Below are positions 1 through 9,609 of a stretch of DNA of 46,337 nucleotides, piece after piece. Position 1 is the stretch's first letter. Each line of letters begins with the position of its first letter. The position numbers and the translations under genes are program-made. Location of the stretch: positions 1 to 46,337 of the forward strand of contig VGEB01000011.1 in the NCBI GenBank assembly GCA_016869435.1, written 5' to 3'. Under the pieces are notes generated by a model. It worked only from the letters and a program-made list of their open reading frames with translations, ran no database searches and was not told the DNA's origin. This DNA is from Alphaproteobacteria bacterium. Lineage in GTDB: Bacteria > Pseudomonadota > Alphaproteobacteria > Rhizobiales > Beijerinckiaceae.

Positions 1-46
1 TCAAATCCGTCGGATAACGTTTGGTCTTCTTCTCGATGTCGGCCAT
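1..46 (-). CDS. IS5-like transposase, N-terminal 15 codons only (runs off the left edge)
   Basis: Reading leftwards from an ATG at 46-44, the 15 visible codons give MADIEKKTKRYPTDL. This resembles the opening of many IS5-family (DDE) transposases, which start with a short polar leader and a KRYPTDLTDEEW-like segment. The rest of the gene lies outside the window. The sequence upstream (47-126) would be the IS end. The call rests on a short match and could change once the rest of the gene is seen. Confidence 0.5.
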   Translation of the reverse strand, partial: MADIEKKTKRYPTDL

Positions 47-126
47 CCGGCCACGATTCGCTCGGGTCCACATCCCCAGCTTGAATCACGCCGAAGCCCA
101 GCCTTCAACCATTCTCAAACAGTCTC
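1..126 (-). mobile_element. Terminal part of an IS5-like insertion sequence
   Basis: The segment holds the first codons of a transposase (46-1, minus) and about 80 non-coding bases before it. Read on the minus strand, the likely outer end begins GAGACTGTTTGAGAATGG (126 down to 109), which looks like an IS5-type terminal repeat. The other end is outside the window, so neither the repeat pair nor a target duplication can be verified. The boundary at about 126 is inferred. Confidence 0.4.
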
Positions 127-777
127 TAAGCCTGAGCAGTAGCTTTGATTCTTAATAGTTCCATTACATTGTGCCGCCTCAGGTTGACTAGGTTTCAATT
201 GACTGCACCAAATATTACCACCCATGCTCACGACATTGACGGTCTTGTCGGCATTATTGTATGAGCACCCACCCCATTGCGGGTCGTTGCAAAAAACTCC
301 TGCATTATTACCAGATGGAATAACGCTGATATCTAGATTAGTGCCGGGACTTGCTTCTGATACTTCTATTCTAGTGTGTTTACCGTCCCAGCAATTCAAA
401 CTAGAACCGCTTGCATTTATTTGAGGCGCCCCCTGGAATAATGCCTGAATGGAATCTGCACACATGCGCCAACCAGCATGAATGTTATTAACGGTTGTAA
501 GGTTGCAAATGCCTCCTGGTAAGACATACCAACTTCCATCCGCCCGCTGCGAACACAGTCGTGTACTATTGGTTAGCGTCATTTTCTGTATTTGTCCTTC
601 CCCGCCAACATTAGATTCCAAAGCTACAATGATGGCTTGGTACAGAAATGCGTTCTTAACCACAAAATTTTGCTGGTAGGCATATGCGCCACCCGTAGTG
701 AGAACACTCAAACACACCGCGATTAAATTTATTGATAGGGCTTTGATTTGGCGCGCAACGAAGGTGCGTATTTTCAT
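115..777 (-). CDS. Secreted Cys-rich hypothetical protein, probably truncated by the IS
   Basis: This is a 220-residue product of unknown function. Residues 1-33 form a clear Sec signal peptide (basic start, hydrophobic core, cleavage after AYA). The mature part has about nine cysteines in short Gly/Asn-rich stretches, suggesting a disulfide-bonded exported protein. A good ribosome site (AAGGGCGGAGAA) precedes the ATG at 777. The gene is visibly richer in A/T than its surroundings and lies between two transposon remnants, which suggests horizontal origin. Its last codons (ETV, then TGA at 117-115) fall inside the presumed IS5-like terminus, so the natural C-terminus is probably missing. I do not recognise the family. 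Confidence 0.6.
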   Translation of the reverse strand: MKIRTFVARQIKALSINLIAVCLSVLTTGGAYAYQQNFVVKNAFLYQAIIVALESNVGGEGQIQKMTLTNSTRLCSQRADGSWYVLPGGICNLTTVNNIHAGWRMCADSIQALFQGAPQINASGSSLNCWDGKHTRIEVSEASPGTNLDISVIPSGNNAGVFCNDPQWGGCSYNNADKTVNVVSMGGNIWCSQLKPSQPEAAQCNGTIKNQSYCSGLETV

Positions 778-967
778 TTCTCCGCCCTTATCATTTCCTT
801 ACGGACACTCGCGGTATGGCGGCGCCAAGGGCAAATCTGCCCTTCCTTCCGAATTTTGACAAGTAGACGCCGACGCCTCGTACTTTCTGGCGTTGTCTGG
901 GCGTTGGCGCGCTTTGGCGAGACACACCGCTCCCGTCGTTTCATTGGAACCGCGGCAATCGAACGCG

Positions 968-1238
968 CTACGCCGTTGACGCGACCGGCGGCGGTCGCCG
1001 TTCCGCGATCATCCGCAGGATGTCGGCGAACACGTTCTTGGAATTCGCAACCTCGGCCATCTGGAACACGACATAGCGGGCGTGAGTGACGACCTTCGCG
1101 CCGATCTTGATAAGCTTTTACTTCAGCGTTGTCAGAGACCAATCTCTGATAGGCCCCCGCGTCGCCAAGGCGCGCAGGAAGTCGCCGAGTTGTAGGCGAT
1201 CGCGTGAAGCTGACGACGTCCGGCGCAACAATGGTCAA
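968..1238 (-). pseudogene. Degenerate C-terminal fragment of an IS1380-family transposase
   Basis: On the minus strand three pieces of an IS1380-type transposase C-terminus can be read: RQLHAIAYN (near 1200), then after a lost base a second piece, then KLIKIGAKVVTHARYV followed by FQMAEVANSKNVFADILRMI, ending at a TAG (970-968). One base appears missing just after the AYN codons. A TAA interrupts the frame immediately before KLIKIGAK, near 1119. The N-terminal two thirds of the gene is absent. It cannot encode an active transposase. The stretch between it and the ORF ending at 777 (positions 778-967) shows no gene and is probably flank of the dead element. Confidence 0.75.
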
Positions 1239-1260
1239 TTTGAAAGCTTATTGATTTTAC

Positions 1261-1338
1261 TGGTCGGAGTGGCGGGATTCGAACCCACGACCCCTTGTCC
1301 CCCAGACAAGTGCGCTAACCGGGCTGCGCTACACTCCG
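1261..1338 (-). tRNA. tRNA-Pro (anticodon GGG)
   Basis: A complete cloverleaf can be folded on the minus strand. The acceptor stem is CGGAGTG paired with CACTCCG. There is a D arm with GCGC stems, and an anticodon stem CTTGT/ACAAG with loop CTGGGGG, giving anticodon GGG. The T arm is GTGGG-TTCGAAT-CCCGC. Discriminator A and an encoded CCA follow at 1264-1261. GGG reads the CCC and CCU proline codons. Mobile-element remnants begin directly past its 3' end. Confidence 0.93.
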
Positions 1339-1385
1339 ACTGGCGCCGTTATAGAGAGGCGGGGCGGCGCTGGCAACGCCGCGGG

Positions 1386-1964
1386 CTAGCGTTTCGTCAG
1401 CTTGAGAAGGCGCTTGCATTCCTCGATCTCGGCGAGAACTTCGCGCAGAACGCGCGCCTGTGAATCAGCGAGGGCGCGGGCGCCGCCCTTGGCCGAAGCA
1501 TCCGCGAAGGGCCTATCGATCTCGACGAGCGGCGCCGGCTCCTCGATCCCCATGTCCAGCTCAGGATATTGCAGAGCGTCATCCTCCTCCGCATACGCCT
1601 CGTCGATCTCATCGTCTTCCGGGTCGAACGGCTCGCCTGTCCCGCCGGATCGGCGGGGCAGCGGCGGCTCGCCCAACTGCAGCGCCCCCTGGCGGCGTCC
1701 GGCGCCGGCCAGTACCGCTTCCACCCCGTCCTCCTTGAGGATGCGCTGCACGCCCCTGATCGTATATCCCTCCTCGTAGAGCAGGCAGCGGATCGCGATC
1801 ACGAGATCGATGTCACGCTGACGGTAGAAGCGGCGTCCGCCGGCGCGCTTTAAGGGGTTGATCTGCCTGAAGCGGGTCTCCCAGAAGCGCAGCACATGCG
1901 CGGGAAGGTCGAGGCTTTCCGCGACCTCGCCGATCGTGCGCATCGCTTGTTCAGTCCTGGCCAC
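1386..1964 (-). CDS. MerR-family transcriptional regulator
   Basis: The 192-residue protein starts with a MerR-type winged helix-turn-helix (residues about 8-75), including RTIGEVAESLDLPAHVLRFW and the RRFYRQRDIDLV wing. The middle (about 90-150) is acidic and low in complexity. A short predicted helix rich in Arg, Leu and Glu ends the protein. There is no cysteine set typical of metal-sensing MerR proteins, so a metal sensor is unlikely. In many Hyphomicrobiales a protein of this kind lies between ihfA and a tRNA-Pro. Here tRNA-Pro is conserved downstream (48 bp away) but ihfA is not next to it, and ctaA diverges from it instead. The target genes are unknown. Confidence 0.85.
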   Translation of the reverse strand: MARTEQAMRTIGEVAESLDLPAHVLRFWETRFRQINPLKRAGGRRFYRQRDIDLVIAIRCLLYEEGYTIRGVQRILKEDGVEAVLAGAGRRQGALQLGEPPLPRRSGGTGEPFDPEDDEIDEAYAEEDDALQYPELDMGIEEPAPLVEIDRPFADASAKGGARALADSQARVLREVLAEIEECKRLLKLTKR

Positions 1965-2125
1965 CTGATTCCTCGACTCAAGGCAAGCTATTCATACATC
2001 CGTCCGAGCGCTCTTTTCAGCCCAAAATCGGGCCGCCTTGCGGGAGCCGGCGGCAAGGTGTGGACAAGCGGGCGCCTCATCCCTTAACTGGCCGCCGTCT
2101 TTCGGCTCGAAACCTTCGGCGTCTC

Positions 2126-3238
2126 ATGGAAGAATGGCTGCACTTCCCTCATCCCGTCCCGGCGATCAGACACCATGTCACCGAGGCGAGCGCCATTGCG
2201 GTGCGCAACTGGCTTTGGGTGGTCGCGGCCCTGGTTTTTCTGATGGTGGTCGTCGGCGGCGCGACTCGGCTGACCGAATCCGGCCTCTCCATCGTGCAGT
2301 GGAAGCCCGTCACCGGCGCGCTGCCGCCGCTCTCGCAGCAGGAGTGGCAGGAGGCCTTCGAAGAATACAAGCAGATTCCGCAATATAAGGAACTGTTCCC
2401 GGACATGGACCTCGCCGGGTTCAAATACATCTACGCCTGGGAATGGGTGCACCGACTTCTCGGACGCCTGATCGGCGTCGCTTTCGCCGTGCCGCTCATC
2501 TGGTTCTGGGCGCGAGGCCAGTTGCCGCGCTCGGTGAAGCCGAAGCTCCTGGGCATTCTCGCGCTCGGCGCGCTCCAGGGCGGGGTCGGCTGGTGGATGG
2601 TGGCGTCCGGCCTCGTCAATCGCATCGAGGTTGCGCAGGAGCGCCTCGCGATTCATCTGCTGATCGCGGCGCTGATCTTCTCCGCATGTCTATGGGTGGC
2701 CGGCGGCTTGGGCCCGCGCGCCGTCTCGCTCGTGCATGAGGGCGCCGGCAGATTGAAGGCGGTCGCGCTGACGATTCTCGCCGTGGTTTTTCTGCAGATT
2801 TTCGTCGGCGGTCTGGTCGCCGGGCTGCGGGCGGGGCTCATCGACAACACCTGGCCGCTGATGGACGGCGTCTTCATCCCGCCGGCGGACGTCTTGTGGC
2901 GGTTGGAGCCGGTCTGGACGAATCTCGTCGACAATCCGGTCACCGTCCAATTCTTCCATCGCATGATCGCCTATGCGATTTTCGCCCTGGCGCTCGGGCA
3001 TCTCATCGACGCATGGATGAATGCGGAAGGACGCGCGCGCCGCGGCGCCGCGATTCTGTTCGGCCATGTGCTGATGCAGATCGCGCTCGGAATCGCGACT
3101 TTGGTGTTGGTCGAGCCGCCTTTCGCCGGCGCGCCGCATATCGCCCTGGCGCTCGCGCATCAGGCGATCGGCATGGCGGTGCTGGCGGTGGCGACGCTGC
3201 AGGCGCGCCGCCTTGCGCAAGACGTAGTTACGCACTGA
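2126..3238 (+). CDS. ctaA: Heme A synthase (COX15/CtaA)
   Basis: This integral membrane protein oxidises the C8 methyl of heme O to a formyl group, giving heme A for aa3-type cytochrome oxidase. Eight hydrophobic segments are visible. The four heme-ligand histidines sit in EWVHRLLGRLIG, the AIHLLIA segment, FFHRMIAY and LAHQAIGM. The GGATRLTESGLSIVQWKPV segment near the N-terminus is diagnostic of the alphaproteobacterial (COX15) type. I chose the ATG at 2126 (370 aa). An in-frame ATG at 2060 would add 22 poorly conserved residues. The next gene starts only 9 bp after the stop, so ctaA and the MNIO cassette are probably co-transcribed. Confidence 0.92.
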   Translation: MEEWLHFPHPVPAIRHHVTEASAIAVRNWLWVVAALVFLMVVVGGATRLTESGLSIVQWKPVTGALPPLSQQEWQEAFEEYKQIPQYKELFPDMDLAGFKYIYAWEWVHRLLGRLIGVAFAVPLIWFWARGQLPRSVKPKLLGILALGALQGGVGWWMVASGLVNRIEVAQERLAIHLLIAALIFSACLWVAGGLGPRAVSLVHEGAGRLKAVALTILAVVFLQIFVGGLVAGLRAGLIDNTWPLMDGVFIPPADVLWRLEPVWTNLVDNPVTVQFFHRMIAYAIFALALGHLIDAWMNAEGRARRGAAILFGHVLMQIALGIATLVLVEPPFAGAPHIALALAHQAIGMAVLAVATLQARRLAQDVVTH

Positions 3239-3247
3239 GGCAGCGGC

Positions 3248-4165
3248 GTGAAAAATTTTGCGATCCTCGATCTTCCCGGCCCGGAATTTCTCAATTTCTT
3301 CGGCCTCGTCGTGATCCTTGTGCTGGCGGGAGCCTATCTCTGCATCCGCTTCGCGGATCGCACCGATCGCCGCCCGCCGCCGCCCGTGCCGCAAAATCCC
3401 GACGCGATGGAAGTCGCCTTCCTGCAGGGCGGGGTCAATCAGGTCATTCGGACGCTGATTTACGATCTTGCGCAGCGTGGTTTCGTCGCGCTCGCCGCCG
3501 AGGATCACGTTGTTCCCACCGAGAAGCAGCCTCAGACTGGCGAACTCAACGCCACGGAGACGCTTCTGCTCGAAGCCGTGCAGGCGAAGCCGAAGGCGCA
3601 TGCGCTGTTCGAAGATCGCGCATTGCGGGGACGCCTGCTCGAGCAGCTTGCGCCGCTGCGCGCCAAACTCGCGGCGGAGGGGCTTATCAAACCCAAGTCA
3701 GTGAAGATCTGGCGTCGTCGCGTGCAGATCGGCGGCACGCTTGTCATCGTCGGTCTGGCGCTTGCGAAAATCTTTGTCGAATGGGCGAAGGGTCCGACGA
3801 ATCTCGCCTATCTCATCTTTCTCGCCGGCGCTTCCGTCGCCGTGCTTTTCGCGCTTGCCTATGCGTTGACCAGAACCCACGCGAGCCGTCGCGGCCACGC
3901 CTATCTCGAAGCGATGCGACTCGCTTACGGGGGCCGGTTGAAAGAGGCGGTCGCGCACATCGGATCGCCGGGACCCGAGGCGCGCGCGTTCCAGGGCGCG
4001 GCGCTGTTTCTGATCGGTCTTTTTGGATTCTCGCCGCTCAAAGGCACGACGGAAGCGATATTCGCCGAAGCCTTCAGCCGCGGCTCTCAAAGCGGCGGCG
4101 CCGATTGCGGGACGAGCTGCGGCGGCAGTTGCGGCGACGGCGGAGCGAGCGGTGGCGGCGATTGA
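3248..4165 (+). CDS. TIGR04222-like membrane protein with Cys-X3-Cys-X3-Cys tail
   Basis: The 305-residue protein has an N-terminal membrane segment (about 14-34), a cytosolic middle, two further membrane segments (about 158-175 and 184-206) and a Gly/Ala-rich hydrophobic stretch near 248-262. The last 25 residues are low in complexity (Gly, Ser, Cys). Cysteines 287, 291 and 295 are spaced exactly four apart (CGTSCGGSCGDG). Layout and tail resemble TIGR04222-domain proteins, which commonly end in Gly/Cys-rich tails and lie next to DUF692 genes. The following MNIO gene overlaps it by 14 bp. I infer that this tail may be the substrate of that enzyme. The family's molecular function is not established. 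Confidence 0.7.
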   Translation: MKNFAILDLPGPEFLNFFGLVVILVLAGAYLCIRFADRTDRRPPPPVPQNPDAMEVAFLQGGVNQVIRTLIYDLAQRGFVALAAEDHVVPTEKQPQTGELNATETLLLEAVQAKPKAHALFEDRALRGRLLEQLAPLRAKLAAEGLIKPKSVKIWRRRVQIGGTLVIVGLALAKIFVEWAKGPTNLAYLIFLAGASVAVLFALAYALTRTHASRRGHAYLEAMRLAYGGRLKEAVAHIGSPGPEARAFQGAALFLIGLFGFSPLKGTTEAIFAEAFSRGSQSGGADCGTSCGGSCGDGGASGGGD

Positions 4166-4988
4166 AACGCCAACGCTCGGCTCCGGCCTCGGTTATCGCC
4201 CGCAGTTTCGCGCCGATCTCTTCGCTCATCGAGAAGAGGTCGATTTCCTCGAGATCGTCGCCGATCACTATCTCGACGCGCCCAGAGAGAAGCTCGACGA
4301 ACTCGATCTTCTAAAATCGCACTTTCCGCTCGTCGCGCATGGTCTCGATCTTTCGATTGGCGGCGCGGAGGGTCTCGATACGCGCTATCTCGATAAGACC
4401 GCCGCGGTCATCGAGCGGATCGATCCGCCCTGGTGGAGCGAACATCTGTGCTTCACGCGCGCCGGCGGCGTCAGCATTGGCCATCTTGCGTCGCTACCCT
4501 ATACGCAGGAGACGATCGACGTCGTCGCGCGCAACGTCGAACGTGTGCGAAGCCGCATAAGGACGCCACTGATACTGGAAAACGTCACCTGCGTCGTGCG
4601 CGTTCCGGGCGGCGAAATGGAAGAGGCCGAATTTTTGTCGCGCACGCTTGAAGCGACAGGATGCGGCTGGCTGTGCGATGTCGCGAACCTGCATGTCAAT
4701 GCGACGAATTTCGGATATGATCTCGAAGCTGAGTTCGAGCGCTGGCCATGGGACAGGCTCGTGCAAATTCACTATGCCGGCGGCCGTGAACGCAACGGGT
4801 GGCTGATCGACAGCCATGACGCTGCGACGAGCGAGGCGGTCTGGACGCTTTACGATCGCATCGTGGCGCGCGCGCCGGTCAAGGGCGCCGTTCTCGAGCG
4901 CGACGAACAAATTCCACCGTTCCGCGCGCTTGCCGAAGAAGTGGCGCGGGCGCGCGCAACGCTCGTGGAACATGGCCGATGGCGTTAG
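4152..4988 (+). CDS. MNIO (DUF692) multinuclear non-heme iron enzyme
   Basis: This is a 278-residue TIM-barrel-type protein of the DUF692/MNIO family, to which the methanobactin enzyme MbnB belongs. Known members use a di- or tri-iron centre to rearrange or oxidise cysteines in peptide substrates. Putative iron ligands are in place: H63 (HGLDLSIGG), E97-H98 (SEHLCF), E143-N144 (LENVT), D176, N179, H181 and N183 (CDVANLHVNATN), H207 (QIHYAG), D220-H222-D223 and E249. The start is a GTG at 4152, because homology begins there (ETPTLGSGLGYR); the open frame extends further upstream without similarity. It overlaps both neighbours (14 bp and 10 bp), which implies translational coupling. Methanobactin genes themselves are not present. 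Confidence 0.88.
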   Translation: MAAIETPTLGSGLGYRPQFRADLFAHREEVDFLEIVADHYLDAPREKLDELDLLKSHFPLVAHGLDLSIGGAEGLDTRYLDKTAAVIERIDPPWWSEHLCFTRAGGVSIGHLASLPYTQETIDVVARNVERVRSRIRTPLILENVTCVVRVPGGEMEEAEFLSRTLEATGCGWLCDVANLHVNATNFGYDLEAEFERWPWDRLVQIHYAGGRERNGWLIDSHDAATSEAVWTLYDRIVARAPVKGAVLERDEQIPPFRALAEEVARARATLVEHGRWR

Positions 4989-5557
4989 CCGAGACTCAGG
5001 CGCTGCTGGCGCGCCTCTACACAGACGATAGCCTGCGCCGCGAATTTTTTGAGTCGCCGGTCGCCGTGGCGACTAGGCTCGGTCTCAGCATGCATGACAC
5101 ACAGCGCCTCGCTGCAATCGACCGTCGCGAAATGGAAGCCTTTGCGCAAAGTCTCATCGGCAAGCGAGCGCTTTACGCGCGCAAGGCGCTGCCGCTTACC
5201 TCGCGCGCATTGGGCGATCGATTCGATGCACTTCTACGAGAGGCGATCCGCGGCCGCGCACAAGATGGAAAAAGCTGTGCAGACGCTGCGGCGCTTGTCG
5301 CGCTTCTCCAGGAACGTTTTGCGGGGCGCCAAATTGAGCCGCTTTGGATCGTCGATCTGGCGCGTTTCGAACTCGCCTTTATCGATTCGGGACGGCCCAG
5401 GGCGGCGTTTGTTCTACGAAGTTTCCATTTCGACGTCGCATCAATCGCTGCGTCTCTCGCCAGAGGCGAAGACGTCAGCGCCATTCGCAAGCGAACCTTT
5501 GGCGTTTGGGCGCGCCCGCCTCGAGGAAGGCTTCGCTGGCGGTTGTTCGGCCGCTAG
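4979..5557 (+). CDS. MNIO partner protein (SCO6045-like), 192 aa
   Basis: The start codon lies inside the end of the MNIO gene (10 bp overlap), so the two are almost certainly made together. The protein is soluble, mostly helical and has no catalytic motif I can name. Its N-terminal third (ARLYTDDSLRREFFESPVAV...) looks like the small helical domain found in proteins encoded beside DUF692 genes; the resemblance to SCO6045-type proteins is from memory. In other MNIO systems such a partner (MbnC, or a DUF2063 protein) binds the substrate and presents it to the enzyme, and the same role is inferred here. The 3' end overlaps the convergent fliJ gene by 4 bp. Confidence 0.6.
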   Translation: MALAETQALLARLYTDDSLRREFFESPVAVATRLGLSMHDTQRLAAIDRREMEAFAQSLIGKRALYARKALPLTSRALGDRFDALLREAIRGRAQDGKSCADAAALVALLQERFAGRQIEPLWIVDLARFELAFIDSGRPRAAFVLRSFHFDVASIAASLARGEDVSAIRKRTFGVWARPPRGRLRWRLFGR

Positions 5558-5958
5558 GCGCGACGAAACGCTTCCGGCATTTCGGCATGGCGCCGTTCGG
5601 CGACGACGTCGATCATCCGCTCGGCGCCGCGATCCCGCGCCTCCTGGTTCTGCGCCTTGCTGAGGTCTTCGCTCGCCTCCTTGAACTGCGCTTCGGCTTC
5701 GTCGATTTGCACACGCAGCTCAGAGATCGAAGCGAGGATGTTTTCACGCCGGGTGCGCGCGGCGCGCGCATAAGTGGGATAGGCGAAATGGTTGAGGTCG
5801 CTAATGTTGGCGCGCCGCTCTTCCTGGCCGATTTCCCGTTCTAGCTCATTGGCCATGCGCGTGAATTCGGCAATCATCGCATTGAGCTGGACGACGCGCC
5901 GGCGTTTTTCCTCGGCCTGAAACCGTTTCAGACGGATAAGCGCATCCCGCGATTTCAT
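5554..5958 (-). CDS. fliJ: FliJ-like flagellar export chaperone
   Basis: The 134-residue protein is nearly all amphipathic helix with heptad-like Leu/Ala spacing and many charged residues, as in FliJ. FliJ is the coiled-coil stalk protein that couples the FliI ATPase to the flagellar type III export gate. The opening MKSRDALIRLKRFQAEEKRR is typical of alphaproteobacterial FliJ. In many genomes the gene sits next to fliI or ctrA, but no other flagellar gene is in this window. Its last 4 bp overlap the MNIO partner gene on the other strand. Confidence 0.75.
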   Translation of the reverse strand: MKSRDALIRLKRFQAEEKRRRVVQLNAMIAEFTRMANELEREIGQEERRANISDLNHFAYPTYARAARTRRENILASISELRVQIDEAEAQFKEASEDLSKAQNQEARDRGAERMIDVVAERRHAEMPEAFRRA

Positions 5959-6138
5959 GCGACAAGCTCCGTTACGCGACTTATGCGAAACAAATTCTTA
6001 ACTCCGCGAGACGGGCCTTAATATGCCCCGCAGAAGTTGCTCCTTAGTTACCGGATTTGATTTTTTTGCAGGCTGTGGCCGCCATGTCGCAAGGACGCAA
6101 TATCTCAGGCGAGGGGCGCGTACTGGAAAAGCAAGCTA

Positions 6139-6158
6139 TTGCGGCGGCTTCGCCGCAA
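6139..6158 (-). terminator. Hairpin after pqqDE, possible terminator
   Basis: A perfect 8-bp inverted repeat (TTGCGGCG / CGCCGCAA) with a 4-base loop lies 15 bases past the pqqDE stop. On the minus strand it is followed by TAGCTTGCTTTTCC, only moderately rich in T. It is a plausible but weak factor-independent terminator. The remaining bases up to fliJ show no gene. Confidence 0.45.
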
Positions 6159-6172
6159 CGCCCGCTTTGACG

Positions 6173-7645
6173 TTACGCCGGCTCCTTGGCGCGCGCCGTT
6201 GACGCCGCGGCGCCGCCATAGCGGCGGTACACGAAGTCCGGCGCCGGCGCCTGCGATTCGACTTCGGCGTAAGCGGCGAAGCGCGCATGTTCCGGCGACA
6301 GGTGGCAGGCGGGATCCGTCGCCGCCGCGTCGCCGACGATGGCGAACGCCTGACAGCGGCAACCGCCGAAATCAATCTCGCGGCGGTCGCACGACCGGCA
6401 GGGCTCCTTCATCCAGTTAACGCCGCGGAAGGCGTTGAAGGCAGATCCGTTTCGCCAAATGTCGGCGAGCGGGATATCGCGCACATTGTCGAAGGTTAAT
6501 CCGGGAAGTGTCTGCGCCGCATGGCAGGGCAGGGCCTTGCCCGACGGCGTCACCGCGATGATTGAGCGGCCCCAACCGCCGGTGCAGGCCTTGGGCCGTT
6601 TGGCGTAGTGATCGTGGATGACGAAATCGAAATTGAGCACGCCGACAAGACGCTTCTTCGCCTCATCAACGATGCCGACCGTTTCCATAAAGGCTTCGCG
6701 CGTTGGAATGAGCGCAGCGCGGTTCATCTGCGCCCAGGCGTAATATTGAATATGCGCAATCTCGATGCGCTGCGCGTCGACTTCGACGGCGAAATCGATG
6801 ATCTGCGGCAGATGGGCGATGTTCTGCCGGTGCATCGGCGCGTTGATCGTCAATCCCATGCCCAATTCGCGCGTCCATCGCGCAACGTCGCGCTTTTTGG
6901 CGACGCCGCCCTGGTAGCCGGAGATGCGGTCCGCGCTTTCGGGAACGACGTCCTGGATCGAAACCTGCACATGATCGAGGCCGATCTCGGCGAGCCGCTG
7001 CAATCGCTCGTACGTCAGCAGAACGGCGGAGGTGACGAGGTTGGTGTAGAGTCCGGCGTCGACGGCATGCGCCAGTATCTCTTCCAAATCGCGTCGCGCG
7101 GTGGGTTCGCCGCCGGATAGATGCAGCTGCATCGCGCCGATCGACGCCGCCTGATGAAAGGTCTCGCCCCATTCGTCGGCGGTAAGCTCCGCATTCGATC
7201 GTTCGAGCTCCAGCGGATTGGAGCAATAGGGACATTGCAGCGGACAGCGATGGGTAAGTTCGGCGAGCAGTCCCGCCGGCCCTTCGGCAAATGGCGCGAT
7301 CGAGGGGGCGAAGTCGGAAGGCGCCGGCGCCGCAAATTGATCGGCTCCGTCGCGCAGCAGCCGCTTGTCGGCGAGCCCTTGCAGCAGCGCCGTGACGTCT
7401 CGCGTGATGACGTCGAGCGGCGCCGCATATTGCTCGGCGAGACGCGCGCACAGATCGGCGAGGCGCGTCGCGCCGTCGATTGCGCGCAGGACAATGAGCC
7501 CGATCGGATCGAGTTCATAGGCGCGCTCGGGCGCGAGAATGACTGTGCGCGAACGGGCGCGGTCTTCGTGCAGCCGCGCATAGCGCGTGAAGGCCGGACG
7601 CGAGTCGGGGCCGATCACGAACCGCGCGGCGTGCGCCTCAGACAT
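6173..7645 (-). CDS. pqqE: PqqD-PqqE fusion: peptide chaperone plus radical SAM enzyme of PQQ synthesis
   Basis: The 490-residue protein joins two PQQ proteins. Residues 1-98 match PqqD, the small domain that binds the PqqA precursor. Residues about 125-470 match PqqE, the radical SAM enzyme that makes the Glu-Tyr carbon-carbon bond in PqqA. The SAM-cluster cysteines are C134, C138 and C141 (CPLQCPYC). The C-terminal domain carries further cysteines for auxiliary iron-sulfur clusters (KACTGGWG, CRSCDRREIDFGGCRCQ). The ATG at 7645 fits the PqqD start; longer in-frame starts run into pqqC. It overlaps the end of pqqC by 8 bp. PQQ is the cofactor of methanol dehydrogenase and other quinoprotein dehydrogenases. 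Confidence 0.93.
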   Translation of the reverse strand: MSEAHAARFVIGPDSRPAFTRYARLHEDRARSRTVILAPERAYELDPIGLIVLRAIDGATRLADLCARLAEQYAAPLDVITRDVTALLQGLADKRLLRDGADQFAAPAPSDFAPSIAPFAEGPAGLLAELTHRCPLQCPYCSNPLELERSNAELTADEWGETFHQAASIGAMQLHLSGGEPTARRDLEEILAHAVDAGLYTNLVTSAVLLTYERLQRLAEIGLDHVQVSIQDVVPESADRISGYQGGVAKKRDVARWTRELGMGLTINAPMHRQNIAHLPQIIDFAVEVDAQRIEIAHIQYYAWAQMNRAALIPTREAFMETVGIVDEAKKRLVGVLNFDFVIHDHYAKRPKACTGGWGRSIIAVTPSGKALPCHAAQTLPGLTFDNVRDIPLADIWRNGSAFNAFRGVNWMKEPCRSCDRREIDFGGCRCQAFAIVGDAAATDPACHLSPEHARFAAYAEVESQAPAPDFVYRRYGGAAASTARAKEPA

Positions 7646-8408
7646 TCGCTTCCCCCGGCCGCCATGTGCCAGGCGGGACCATCCCTGGCGTGACATAAGC
7701 GTGATGTAAGGCGTCGAGCTGCGCCCACAAGACGTCGCATTTGAACCGAACGGCGCCGACGCAAGCTTCCTGCTCGGCGCGAGTCTTGGCGTTGTTGAGG
7801 ACGAAGTCCAGCGCAAATTCGGAGTCGCGCGGCGCCTGGCTCAGCCGGCGTTTGAAATAGGCCATCACATGGTCGTCCATGAAGTCGTAGTTTTCGAGCA
7901 TGCCGGCGATGCGTTCGCGATGGATAGACGGCGCAAAGAGCTCGGTCAGCGATGACGCGACCGCGACCGTGAGCGGCTGCTCGACGACGAAGCGCACATA
8001 GGCCTCGACGGCGAATTTCGTCGCGGGCAGGGCGCCGCGACGAGAGGTGACGTAATCGCGCGAAAAGCCGAGCGCGTCGGTAAGCACAAGCCAGCGCTCG
8101 ATGCCGCCGCCTTCGTCGCCGAGACCGTCGTGATCATGGATGCGGTGGATCCACTCGCGGCGCAGTTCGCGATCATGGACACGGCTCATGAAGGCGGCGT
8201 CCTTGCGGGGCACGGCCTCCTGGTAGCAGTAACGGTTGAGCGCCCAGGCGGCGACCTGCTCTTTCTTGAGCTTGCCCCCGTGCAGCAGCTTATGAAATTC
8301 GTGCTTGTCGTGGTAGCGCTCGGCGCCAACCGCGCGGATGGCGGCTTCGAATTCCTCGCGGGAGAGCGGCGCGGCTTCGCGCCAATCGATGGCTACGATC
8401 TCGTTCAC
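7638..8408 (-). CDS. pqqC: Pyrroloquinoline-quinone synthase PqqC
   Basis: PqqC is a cofactor-less oxidase that performs the final ring closure and eight-electron oxidation giving PQQ. The 256-residue helical protein has the family's characteristic segments: HDKHEFHKLLHGGKL, ALNRYCYQEAVPRKDAAFMS, RIHDHDGLGDEGGGIERWL, and FVVEQPLTVAVASSLTELFA. Histidines and Tyr/Arg residues of the active site lie in these blocks. Length is normal for PqqC alone. No PqqD domain follows, unlike the PqqCD fusion of Methylorubrum; here PqqD is fused to PqqE instead. The start overlaps the pqqB stop by 4 bp (ATGA). Confidence 0.95.
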   Translation of the reverse strand: MNEIVAIDWREAAPLSREEFEAAIRAVGAERYHDKHEFHKLLHGGKLKKEQVAAWALNRYCYQEAVPRKDAAFMSRVHDRELRREWIHRIHDHDGLGDEGGGIERWLVLTDALGFSRDYVTSRRGALPATKFAVEAYVRFVVEQPLTVAVASSLTELFAPSIHRERIAGMLENYDFMDDHVMAYFKRRLSQAPRDSEFALDFVLNNAKTRAEQEACVGAVRFKCDVLWAQLDALHHAYVTPGMVPPGTWRPGEANV

Positions 8409-9334
8409 AGGCTCACCTCCATGCCGTCTTCGCCGATGTCCCAGCCTGCCGCTTGGGCGATCGCATATTCGTTGGAGAACGCGTTAAGCAGCGGATTGGA
8501 ATTGTTGATGTGCACGTAAATTTTGCGCTCAACGCCGAGCGGCGCGAAGGCGGCGATGGAGCCGTCGGCGCCGCTGACGTTAATATGGCCCATGCGTGAA
8601 CCAGTCTTGCCGAGCAGCCCTTGCTCGATCATCTCGTTTTCTTGAAAGAGCGTGCCGTCGAAGAACACGAGCTTGGCGCCGCGTAGCCGATCGGCGAGCG
8701 GCGCGTCAATCTTCGCGCAGCCCGGAATGTAAAAGAACGAGTCGCCGGTCGCGGTTTCAGTGATCTCCAGTCCGAGCGTGTCGCCTGCGCTTGTTCCGAA
8801 GTTCGGCGCATTGGCGTTTTCGAGGTAAAGCGCGATCTTGCCCGGAACCGGAAAGGCGCGGATGGCGAGCCCCAGATCGAGGCCGGCGCCTCTGATCGCG
8901 ACCGCCTCGTCCATGCGCAACTCGATGCGCGGCACGAGCGGCGTCTGCAGTATCGTGAAAATCGGATTGGCGCCGAGCGCGTCGAGAACGCGTCCCGCGG
9001 CGTAAAGGCTGAACGGCTGCGCTTCGCGCATGTTGAGAAGGCCGGCGACGTGATCGACATCGCCGTTTGTCAGCGCCACCGCCTTGATCGGGCTCGCGCG
9101 CAAACCGTCTTCGGCGCCGGGCGCAAGCTCGGGAGCGGCGGAGATTTGCTGTCGCAAATCGGGGGAGGCGTTGAGTAGAAGCCAGTCGGCGCCATTGGCG
9201 CTGACCGCCAGCGACGACTGGGTGCGCGGCTTGAATCCCGCAGCCCCCGCGCGGACGGCGCGGCAGTTGGCGCAGTTGCAATTCCATTGCGGGAAACCGC
9301 CGCCGGCGCCCGACCCTAAGACTTTGATTCTCAT
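8405..9334 (-). CDS. pqqB: PqqB, PQQ biosynthesis metallo-hydrolase
   Basis: The 309-residue protein has the metallo-beta-lactamase fold of PqqB, thought to hydroxylate the Glu-Tyr intermediate. Diagnostic segments are VLGSGAGGGFPQWNCNCANC at the N-terminus, LLLNASPDLRQQI, the metal motif TNGDVDHVAGLL, GKTGSRMGHINVSG and YVHINNSNPLL. The ATG at 9334 gives the standard family start and has GGAAAAGG just upstream; an ATG at 9349 would add five residues. It is the first gene of the pqqB-pqqC-pqqDE operon. The 275 bp between it and the divergent lipoprotein gene hold no recognisable pqqA. Confidence 0.94.
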   Translation of the reverse strand: MRIKVLGSGAGGGFPQWNCNCANCRAVRAGAAGFKPRTQSSLAVSANGADWLLLNASPDLRQQISAAPELAPGAEDGLRASPIKAVALTNGDVDHVAGLLNMREAQPFSLYAAGRVLDALGANPIFTILQTPLVPRIELRMDEAVAIRGAGLDLGLAIRAFPVPGKIALYLENANAPNFGTSAGDTLGLEITETATGDSFFYIPGCAKIDAPLADRLRGAKLVFFDGTLFQENEMIEQGLLGKTGSRMGHINVSGADGSIAAFAPLGVERKIYVHINNSNPLLNAFSNEYAIAQAAGWDIGEDGMEVSL

Positions 9335-9609
9335 TGCCTTTTCCGACATGGCGGGCGCGCCGCGCCGTCGGGTCTCCCTGACGTTATTTTGTTGGCACTA
9401 TGCGCAGGCGGCTTGCAATCGCGCAAGTGCGACCGATTTGCGCGGACCATGAAATGTCGAGACTTTTTCCCTTTCGAGACGGGTGTCTCGCCCCGCTTTG
9501 GTCGCTTTCTCAGGGCAGTAAAGCGCAGGATGAGGCTGAGGCCTTAGTCGAACGCGCCGCTGTCTCGTGACACGCGCCGGATCGAGCCAATCATTTGCAC
9601 AGACTTGGG

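Follow-up and report, generated by a model that had tools for sequence, protein, structure and literature searches.

Can an MNIO enzyme act on the tail of a full membrane protein? In the parts of the articles available to us, the MNIO products mentioned are made on small peptides. The question is raised by three overlapping genes of a 46,337-nucleotide stretch of alphaproteobacterial DNA (family Beijerinckiaceae; assembly GCA_016869435.1, contig VGEB01000011.1, positions 1 to 46,337 of the forward strand), hereafter called the window. They encode a TIGR04222 membrane protein ending with a Gly/Cys tail (T), an MNIO enzyme (M) and a partner protein (C), whose coordinates are collected in Table 1. 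With a probability of about 0.6, we consider that T, M and C work together as a single unit of protein modification, in which M, together with C, modifies the Gly/Cys tail of the membrane protein T.

Conservation of the T-M-C genes

Co-occurrence was followed in 37 genomes of the same genus, most likely the methanotroph genus Methylocystis. T, M and C are present together in 25 of them, T alone in six and none of the three in another six. A TIGR04222 protein above the family cut-off is thus found in 31 genomes, and a close M ortholog (at least 470 bits) and C are each found in 25, which are the same genomes. Neither a close M nor a C without T was met in any of the 37. As far as contigs reach, the site is conserved as merR-ctaA-T-(M-C)-fliJ-like. 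At the T-M-C loci, the 24 readable tails all include three to five Cys, 23 of them fitting one motif, and Gly directly follows 81 of the 85 tail Cys. In the six T-only genomes, T is followed by the fliJ-like gene, and the five readable T proteins end before the tail, with zero or one Cys in their last 60 residues (the sixth, in G027, is masked). As for the six genomes devoid of the three genes, two of which are only 59% and 77% complete, ctaA adjoins the fliJ-like gene in G006 and G034, G024 has ctaA and lacks the fliJ-like gene in the stretch fetched, and three have no ctaA match. In a tree of T (30 same-genus and six far rows), the tail-less proteins constitute one clade (support 100/99). 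That one clade lacks the tail together with M and C suggests that the enzyme alters the tail.

Some same-genus genes are interrupted. In G016 (L047), a frame shift shortly ahead of the tail makes T read into the M frame, by either an assembly error or a real lesion. C lies in two pieces in G021 (L060; frame shift or assembly break) and in G010 (two contigs, at a contig edge), and three C matches show one stop inside the matched stretch, perhaps from a match overrunning a shorter end.

On a wider scale, genomes were scanned with the M alignment, a search that is seeded by two conserved peptide patterns and hence favours near relatives of M, and 36 loci were retrieved. Seventeen are of Methylocystis type (74-86% identity) and the 19 others belong to cyanobacteria, Verrucomicrobia, Planctomycetota, Myxococcales, Bacteroidetes, Chthonomonas, Eremiobacterota and more. 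Among the latter, 17 loci display the order T-M-C on one strand, with an M identity of 39-61% and at least one T carrying at least four Cys in its last 80 residues. Conserved co-occurrence, on which an earlier note on this DNA had made its proposal of a tail modification depend, is thus found both within and beyond the genus, and the T-M-C arrangement is more than chance. No fourth gene is common to all 17 distant loci, as far as these loci reach; the clusters of flanking ORFs (open reading frames) include a seven-locus and a six-locus cluster that are antisense over M and C, and another in three loci.

The distant loci also vary in content. Two T genes lie beside one M-C pair in L108 (3744-5917) and L113 (3220-5968), with a Cys tail on only one of both T proteins in L108, and T is split over two ORFs in L110. 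L115 has a remote M (24% identity), and neither T nor C was found there. In the verrucomicrobial locus L114, M and C are present at 3655-5192 and no T was found within the 8.2-kb locus. Its M is changed at the positions of H98, N179, H207, D220 and H222, i.e., five of the nine iron ligands described below, and at that of D251, while the partner is kept. Judged from these substitutions, the L114 MNIO is possibly a pseudo-enzyme, and this reverse case, with ligands decayed where T is absent beside M and C, supports a modification of T by M. As for TIGR04222 itself, matches at E <=0.001 were found in 8 of 385 genomes of a class sample (at most seven candidates scored per genome), the single one above cut-off being the window's own, and in a phylum sample 14 of 398 genomes were above cut-off, other alphaproteobacteria included.

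Features of T, M and C

T scores 85.7 bits against the NCBIfam model TIGR04222, for a cut-off of 43, and is therefore a member of this family. Its tail carries Cys287, Cys291 and Cys295, each directly followed by Gly. The fold of T had no match in the PDB at E <=0.001.

M is a member of the MNIO superfamily, with 279.3 bits against PF05114 of Pfam for a gathering score of 25. Its best NCBIfam score is obtained with the BufB model NF050167 (238 bits), below the equivalog cut-off of 310, and its score against the MbnB model TIGR04159 is 49.6 bits for an equivalog cut-off of 325. The nine iron ligands of TglH, as given in the part of PMC10880893 available to us, are all present (H63, H98, E143, D176, N179, H207, D220, H222 and E249, assigned by our own reading of an alignment). 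In 23 aligned enzymes (five of Methylocystis type and 18 others), each of these positions as well as D251 is kept in 22-23 sequences, every departure being that of L114. D251, judged by its place after a conserved Glu-Arg, occupies the position of the Asp proposed as the base of FonB, although this match is our own reading of an alignment that includes no FonB sequence. FonB prefers Cys-Gly, according to the part of the captophorin paper (PMC13097082) available to us, which also makes the proposal on Asp and gives an absorbance near 305 nm for thiooxazole products. The same genome has four MNIO matches, i.e., M, two proteins above the BufB cut-off (377.1 and 367 bits) and one above the MbnB cut-off (438.2 bits), the last three encoded at other loci (L001, L002 and L004).

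C had no Pfam match at E <=0.1, and none with the MbnC models of Pfam and NCBIfam. Its AlphaFold2 model (26 sequences, mean pLDDT 91.9) consists of a helical N-terminal part followed by a helix-strand part, the latter being perhaps a cut-down RRE. Among the PDB matches listed, the only ones at E <=0.001 are two TglI chains (8.8e-5 and 2.7e-4 with Foldseek), 8hi7_A being the best (prob 1.00, TMq 0.65), and the NGO1945 structure 3dee, to which the fold of PME-type 2 partners is related according to PMC12452194, is not among the best 50 of 80 fold matches. The N-terminal helices reach 32.3 bits against NF038399, under its domain cut-off of 40, and this model is matched at E <=0.1 by 21 of the 26 aligned partners (best 6.8e-10), which suggests that they resemble NHLP leader domains, short of membership. 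A sequence search in the PDB yielded weak matches with nitrile hydratase alpha (best E 0.014), which lead to the NHLP idea, short of proof. DUF2063 was matched in Pfam neither by C nor by any of the 26 aligned partners, two of which weakly match the NCBIfam model HvfC (best E 0.00084). Encoded after the MNIO gene and devoid of a DUF2063 signature, C is in these two respects like the PME-type 2 partners.

These data agree with what the earlier note had read from the letters. The three ORFs, re-read on the plus strand, overlap by 14 bp (T and M, 4152-4165) and 10 bp (M and C, 4979-4988) as it described, the putative iron-ligand set of the enzyme is the full one, and the third protein, which it had compared to substrate-presenting partners for its placement, follows M and has a TglI-like predicted fold. 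The note's claim to novelty fared less well. Indeed, Antoine et al. (2025; PMC12452194, available to us in part) already proposed that TIGR04222 proteins with a Cys tail are substrates of MNIOs acting with PME-type 2 partners. No chemical test of a TIGR04222 tail modification was found in the literature, among the matches listed. Their clusters share with the window the same three kinds of genes, the proposal of a Cys-tail substrate and a partner without DUF2063, whereas they are mostly from Actinomycetota, with a tail predicted to be periplasmic where a cytoplasmic one is favoured here. The string "methylocyst" is absent from the main text of that article.

Other known systems are similar only in part. 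TglH/TglI, involved in 3-thiaglutamate synthesis, combine an MNIO having the same nine ligands with a partner of related fold, but the scaffold there, TglA, is a small peptide to which a Cys is added at the C-terminus, and the TglI chain of the PDB has 269 residues versus 192 for C. The bufferin and captophorin systems (BufABC, fontiphorin) are close by the best NCBIfam score of M and by the Cys-Gly dyads of the tail, which resemble the preference of FonB. However, the bufferin gene clusters associate a Sec signal-peptide precursor with a DUF2063 partner, whereas T is a predicted multi-pass protein rather than a small precursor, C lacks DUF2063 and M stays under the BufB cut-off. Methanobactin MbnB/MbnC belongs to the same enzyme superfamily, and MbnB is encoded elsewhere in this genome, but M stays under the MbnB cut-off and C does not match MbnC.

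The tail of T as a probable substrate and its alternatives

The roles of M as the enzyme, C as the partner and the tail as the substrate are well supported by the co-occurrence, the joint absence and the TglI-like fold predicted for C; T is probably the substrate and its tail the site of modification. In the mechanism that we infer, T would be embedded in the membrane as an integral protein, with its disordered C-terminal Gly/Cys tail probably extending into the cytoplasm. Acting like TglI towards TglH, C would physically bind M as well as T (or the tail of T), and T would hence need no leader peptide of its own, the NHLP-like leader-type domain being carried by the N-terminal helices of the partner. 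M would oxidise the tail cysteines, most likely at Cys-Gly dyads. A 5-thiooxazole would be the likeliest product, proposed because M is nearest to the bufferin maturases, with a mass lower by about 4 Da per modified Cys, and the outcome would be a membrane-anchored metal-binding (copper) tail. In its complete form, i.e., a permanently membrane-anchored protein, instead of a released peptide, bearing MNIO-made heterocycles (likely copper-binding thiooxazoles) on a cytoplasm-facing tail, with the leader function moved in trans to the partner as an NHLP-like domain, this picture is tentative and we hold it, as a whole, to be rather unlikely.

Several observations weigh against a modification of the tail by M or against parts of this mechanism. 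As M is under the BufB cut-off, the thiooxazole product is a guess. On the tree, the absence of the tail in Methylocystis counts as a single event, which is most simply explained by tail, M and C having been lost jointly, because distant relatives have T-M-C, and the nesting of the tail-less clade among T-M-C proteins has only 87/72 support. Moreover, Cys tails are not restricted to loci with an MNIO. Considering the last 60 residues of 73 T rows, from loci of unequal length, at least two Cys are found in 38 of 39 rows with M versus 27 of 34 without M in the locus (one of the 39 duplicates another, and a contig end truncates the tail-less row L140). The corresponding Fisher p of 0.02 ignores kinship, and a tree-aware test on 71 rows provided two independent pairs on supported branches and six on all branches, which is too few, the tail having followed M in 1.1 of them on average and the opposite direction never occurring. 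Seven of 12 Pseudomonadota genomes with a solo T have no PF05114 match (two of the seven are 77% and 80% complete), and five of these seven have at least two tail Cys; the same match is absent in 15 of 17 solo-T genomes from two further phylum samples. The tail therefore has some use without an MNIO, and the general rule that a Cys tail means an MNIO was rejected, such tails being common in TIGR04222 proteins of MNIO-less genomes.

Within the TIGR04222 family, one part has the MNIO in addition. A quick T tree of 72 rows splits (support 84) into a half of 44 rows, with 35 of the 38 M-linked ones, and a half of 28 rows, with the other three. Within the M-rich half, by a post hoc count, at least two tail Cys are found in 34 of 35 M-linked rows versus three of nine others. 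One of these three (L176, in G1024) has six tail Cys in a genome without any MNIO match, and again speaks against a dependence of the tail on the enzyme; in another (L178), the sequence is truncated at a contig end.

The side of the membrane on which the tail lies bears on the alternative that survives best. The best KD19 values average 2.29, 1.86 and 2.43 in the three clear transmembrane helices and 0.89 in an amphipathic helix. Helix 244-259, which precedes the tail, has a mean of 1.16 and comes after a K/R-rich loop (207-243). The presumed inner loops are richer in K/R than the outer ones in 26 of 26 sequences, for hand-chosen regions of which the inner ones are longer, and neither M nor C shows an export signal by eye. 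Hydropathy and charge thus indicate that the tail of T is probably cytoplasmic, on the same side as M and C. The opposite was published in PMC12452194, the part of it available to us predicting periplasmic tails from AlphaFold2 models, and this also counts against a cytoplasmic tail read from hydropathy and charge. The tail could thus be modified and be periplasmic, like exported bufferins, provided that the weakly hydrophobic helix 244-259 crosses the membrane. This helix is indeed moderately hydrophobic (KD19 of 1.33 in T itself, with 5 of 26 sequences reaching 1.6), and some of 14 long relatives have a further segment above 1.6 in this region. Given the loop charges and the low mean of the helix, a periplasmic tail seems to us rather improbable.

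Some TIGR04222 proteins (L160-L162, L164-L168, L170-L172, L175, L188 and L189) are long, with 458-515 aa when counted from the first ATG or GTG, and combine an extra N-terminal part with Gly/Cys tails, and no MNIO was found beside them in loci of 3.6-3.7 kb. As a guide to orientation, the 14 long relatives gave no answer, as their first hydrophobic segment begins at residue 143 at the earliest and the number of segments varies from three to six.

M and C could otherwise be active on another substrate, the tail of T only recruiting them to the membrane or supplying metal. Cys tails in genomes without an MNIO match point to another use of these tails, and the two BufB-type and one MbnB-type MNIO of the same genome lead to expect other MNIO substrates. 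On the other hand, close M and C orthologs never occur without T in the 37 same-genus genomes, and tail, M and C are absent together. A separate precursor peptide near M was also looked for, among ORFs of 20-130 aa with at least three Cys in window positions 1-9500. The scan returned 26 ORFs, most of which lie antisense to called genes or in another frame, and by our own reading, to which no family-library search of these ORFs was added, none is a convincing free-standing Cys-rich precursor gene beside M on the same strand. This candidate was rejected, and the membrane protein is the Cys-rich candidate, as the earlier note had stated. Another substrate is hence quite unlikely in our judgement. 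Finally, mere linkage of T, M and C as neighbours without a functional tie, with a coincidental loss of the tail, has in its favour that just one tail-loss event is seen in the genus, and is very improbable given a T-M-C order kept across distant phyla and the fact that these three genes alone are common to all 17 distant loci, within the reach of these loci.

Neighbouring genes and biological meaning

Table 1. Features of the T-M-C genes and of the surrounding conserved site (window coordinates)
Feature	Position	Strand	Basis
MerR-family regulator, left border of conserved site	1386-1964	-	PF13411 66.7 bits; synteny
ctaA/COX15 heme A synthase, neighbour at conserved site	2060-3238	+	PF02628 338.9 bits
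T, TIGR04222 membrane protein	3248-4165	+	GTG start, 305 aa; ORF call
Predicted transmembrane helices of T	residues 11-36, 150-178, 186-208		AlphaFold2 model (pLDDT 81.5) and hydropathy
Disordered Gly/Cys tail of T	4085-4162 (residues 280-305)	+	pLDDT <50
M, MNIO (PF05114) enzyme	4152-4988	+	GTG start, 278 aa; ORF call
C, partner protein	4979-5557	+	ATG start, 192 aa; ORF call
NHLP/Os17-like stretch of C	4997-5155 (residues 7-59)	+	NF038399 NH_RiPP_Os17, E 7.7e-8
FliJ-like protein, right border of conserved site	5554-5958	-	TIGR02473 28.7 bits, under cut-off 50.45; synteny

Upstream of T, the stop of ctaA, a gene that the earlier note does not mention, is followed by a 9 bp gap. By our own reading, a T start is readable at most 23 bases from the ctaA stop in all 25 same-genus M-bearing loci. 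Because this spacing is tight and kept, ctaA-T-M-C may be one transcription unit, with ctaA sharing the transcript. The neighbourhood of ctaA makes a link to cytochrome oxidase or copper possible, or ctaA may mark a mere insertion site. An anti-phage defence role was set aside, as T, M and C all lack a PADLOC match at E <=0.1.

Close to the T-M-C genes, genes for pyrroloquinoline quinone (PQQ) synthesis are found at window positions 6173-9349 (minus strand), i.e., a PqqD- and PqqE-matching protein, then PqqC and PqqB. At positions 115-777 (minus strand), a 220-aa protein contains several Cys and its start looks signal-like by eye; at the thresholds used, it matched no model of NCBIfam or Pfam.

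Beyond the idea already in print, four elements are new: tail, M and C are jointly absent in one Methylocystis clade, the enzyme is decayed where no T is adjacent, the partner is TglI-like and its front NHLP-like, and the predicted topology disagrees with the published one. Methylocystis offers a natural comparison, as its genomes have either all or none of tail, enzyme and partner at one and the same site, and cultured strains exist. If the proposed mechanism is true, methanotrophs would have, alongside methanobactin and bufferins, a device for sensing or buffering metal at the inner membrane face. If an MNIO does modify the tail of a full membrane protein, this enzyme family would reach into ordinary membrane biology.

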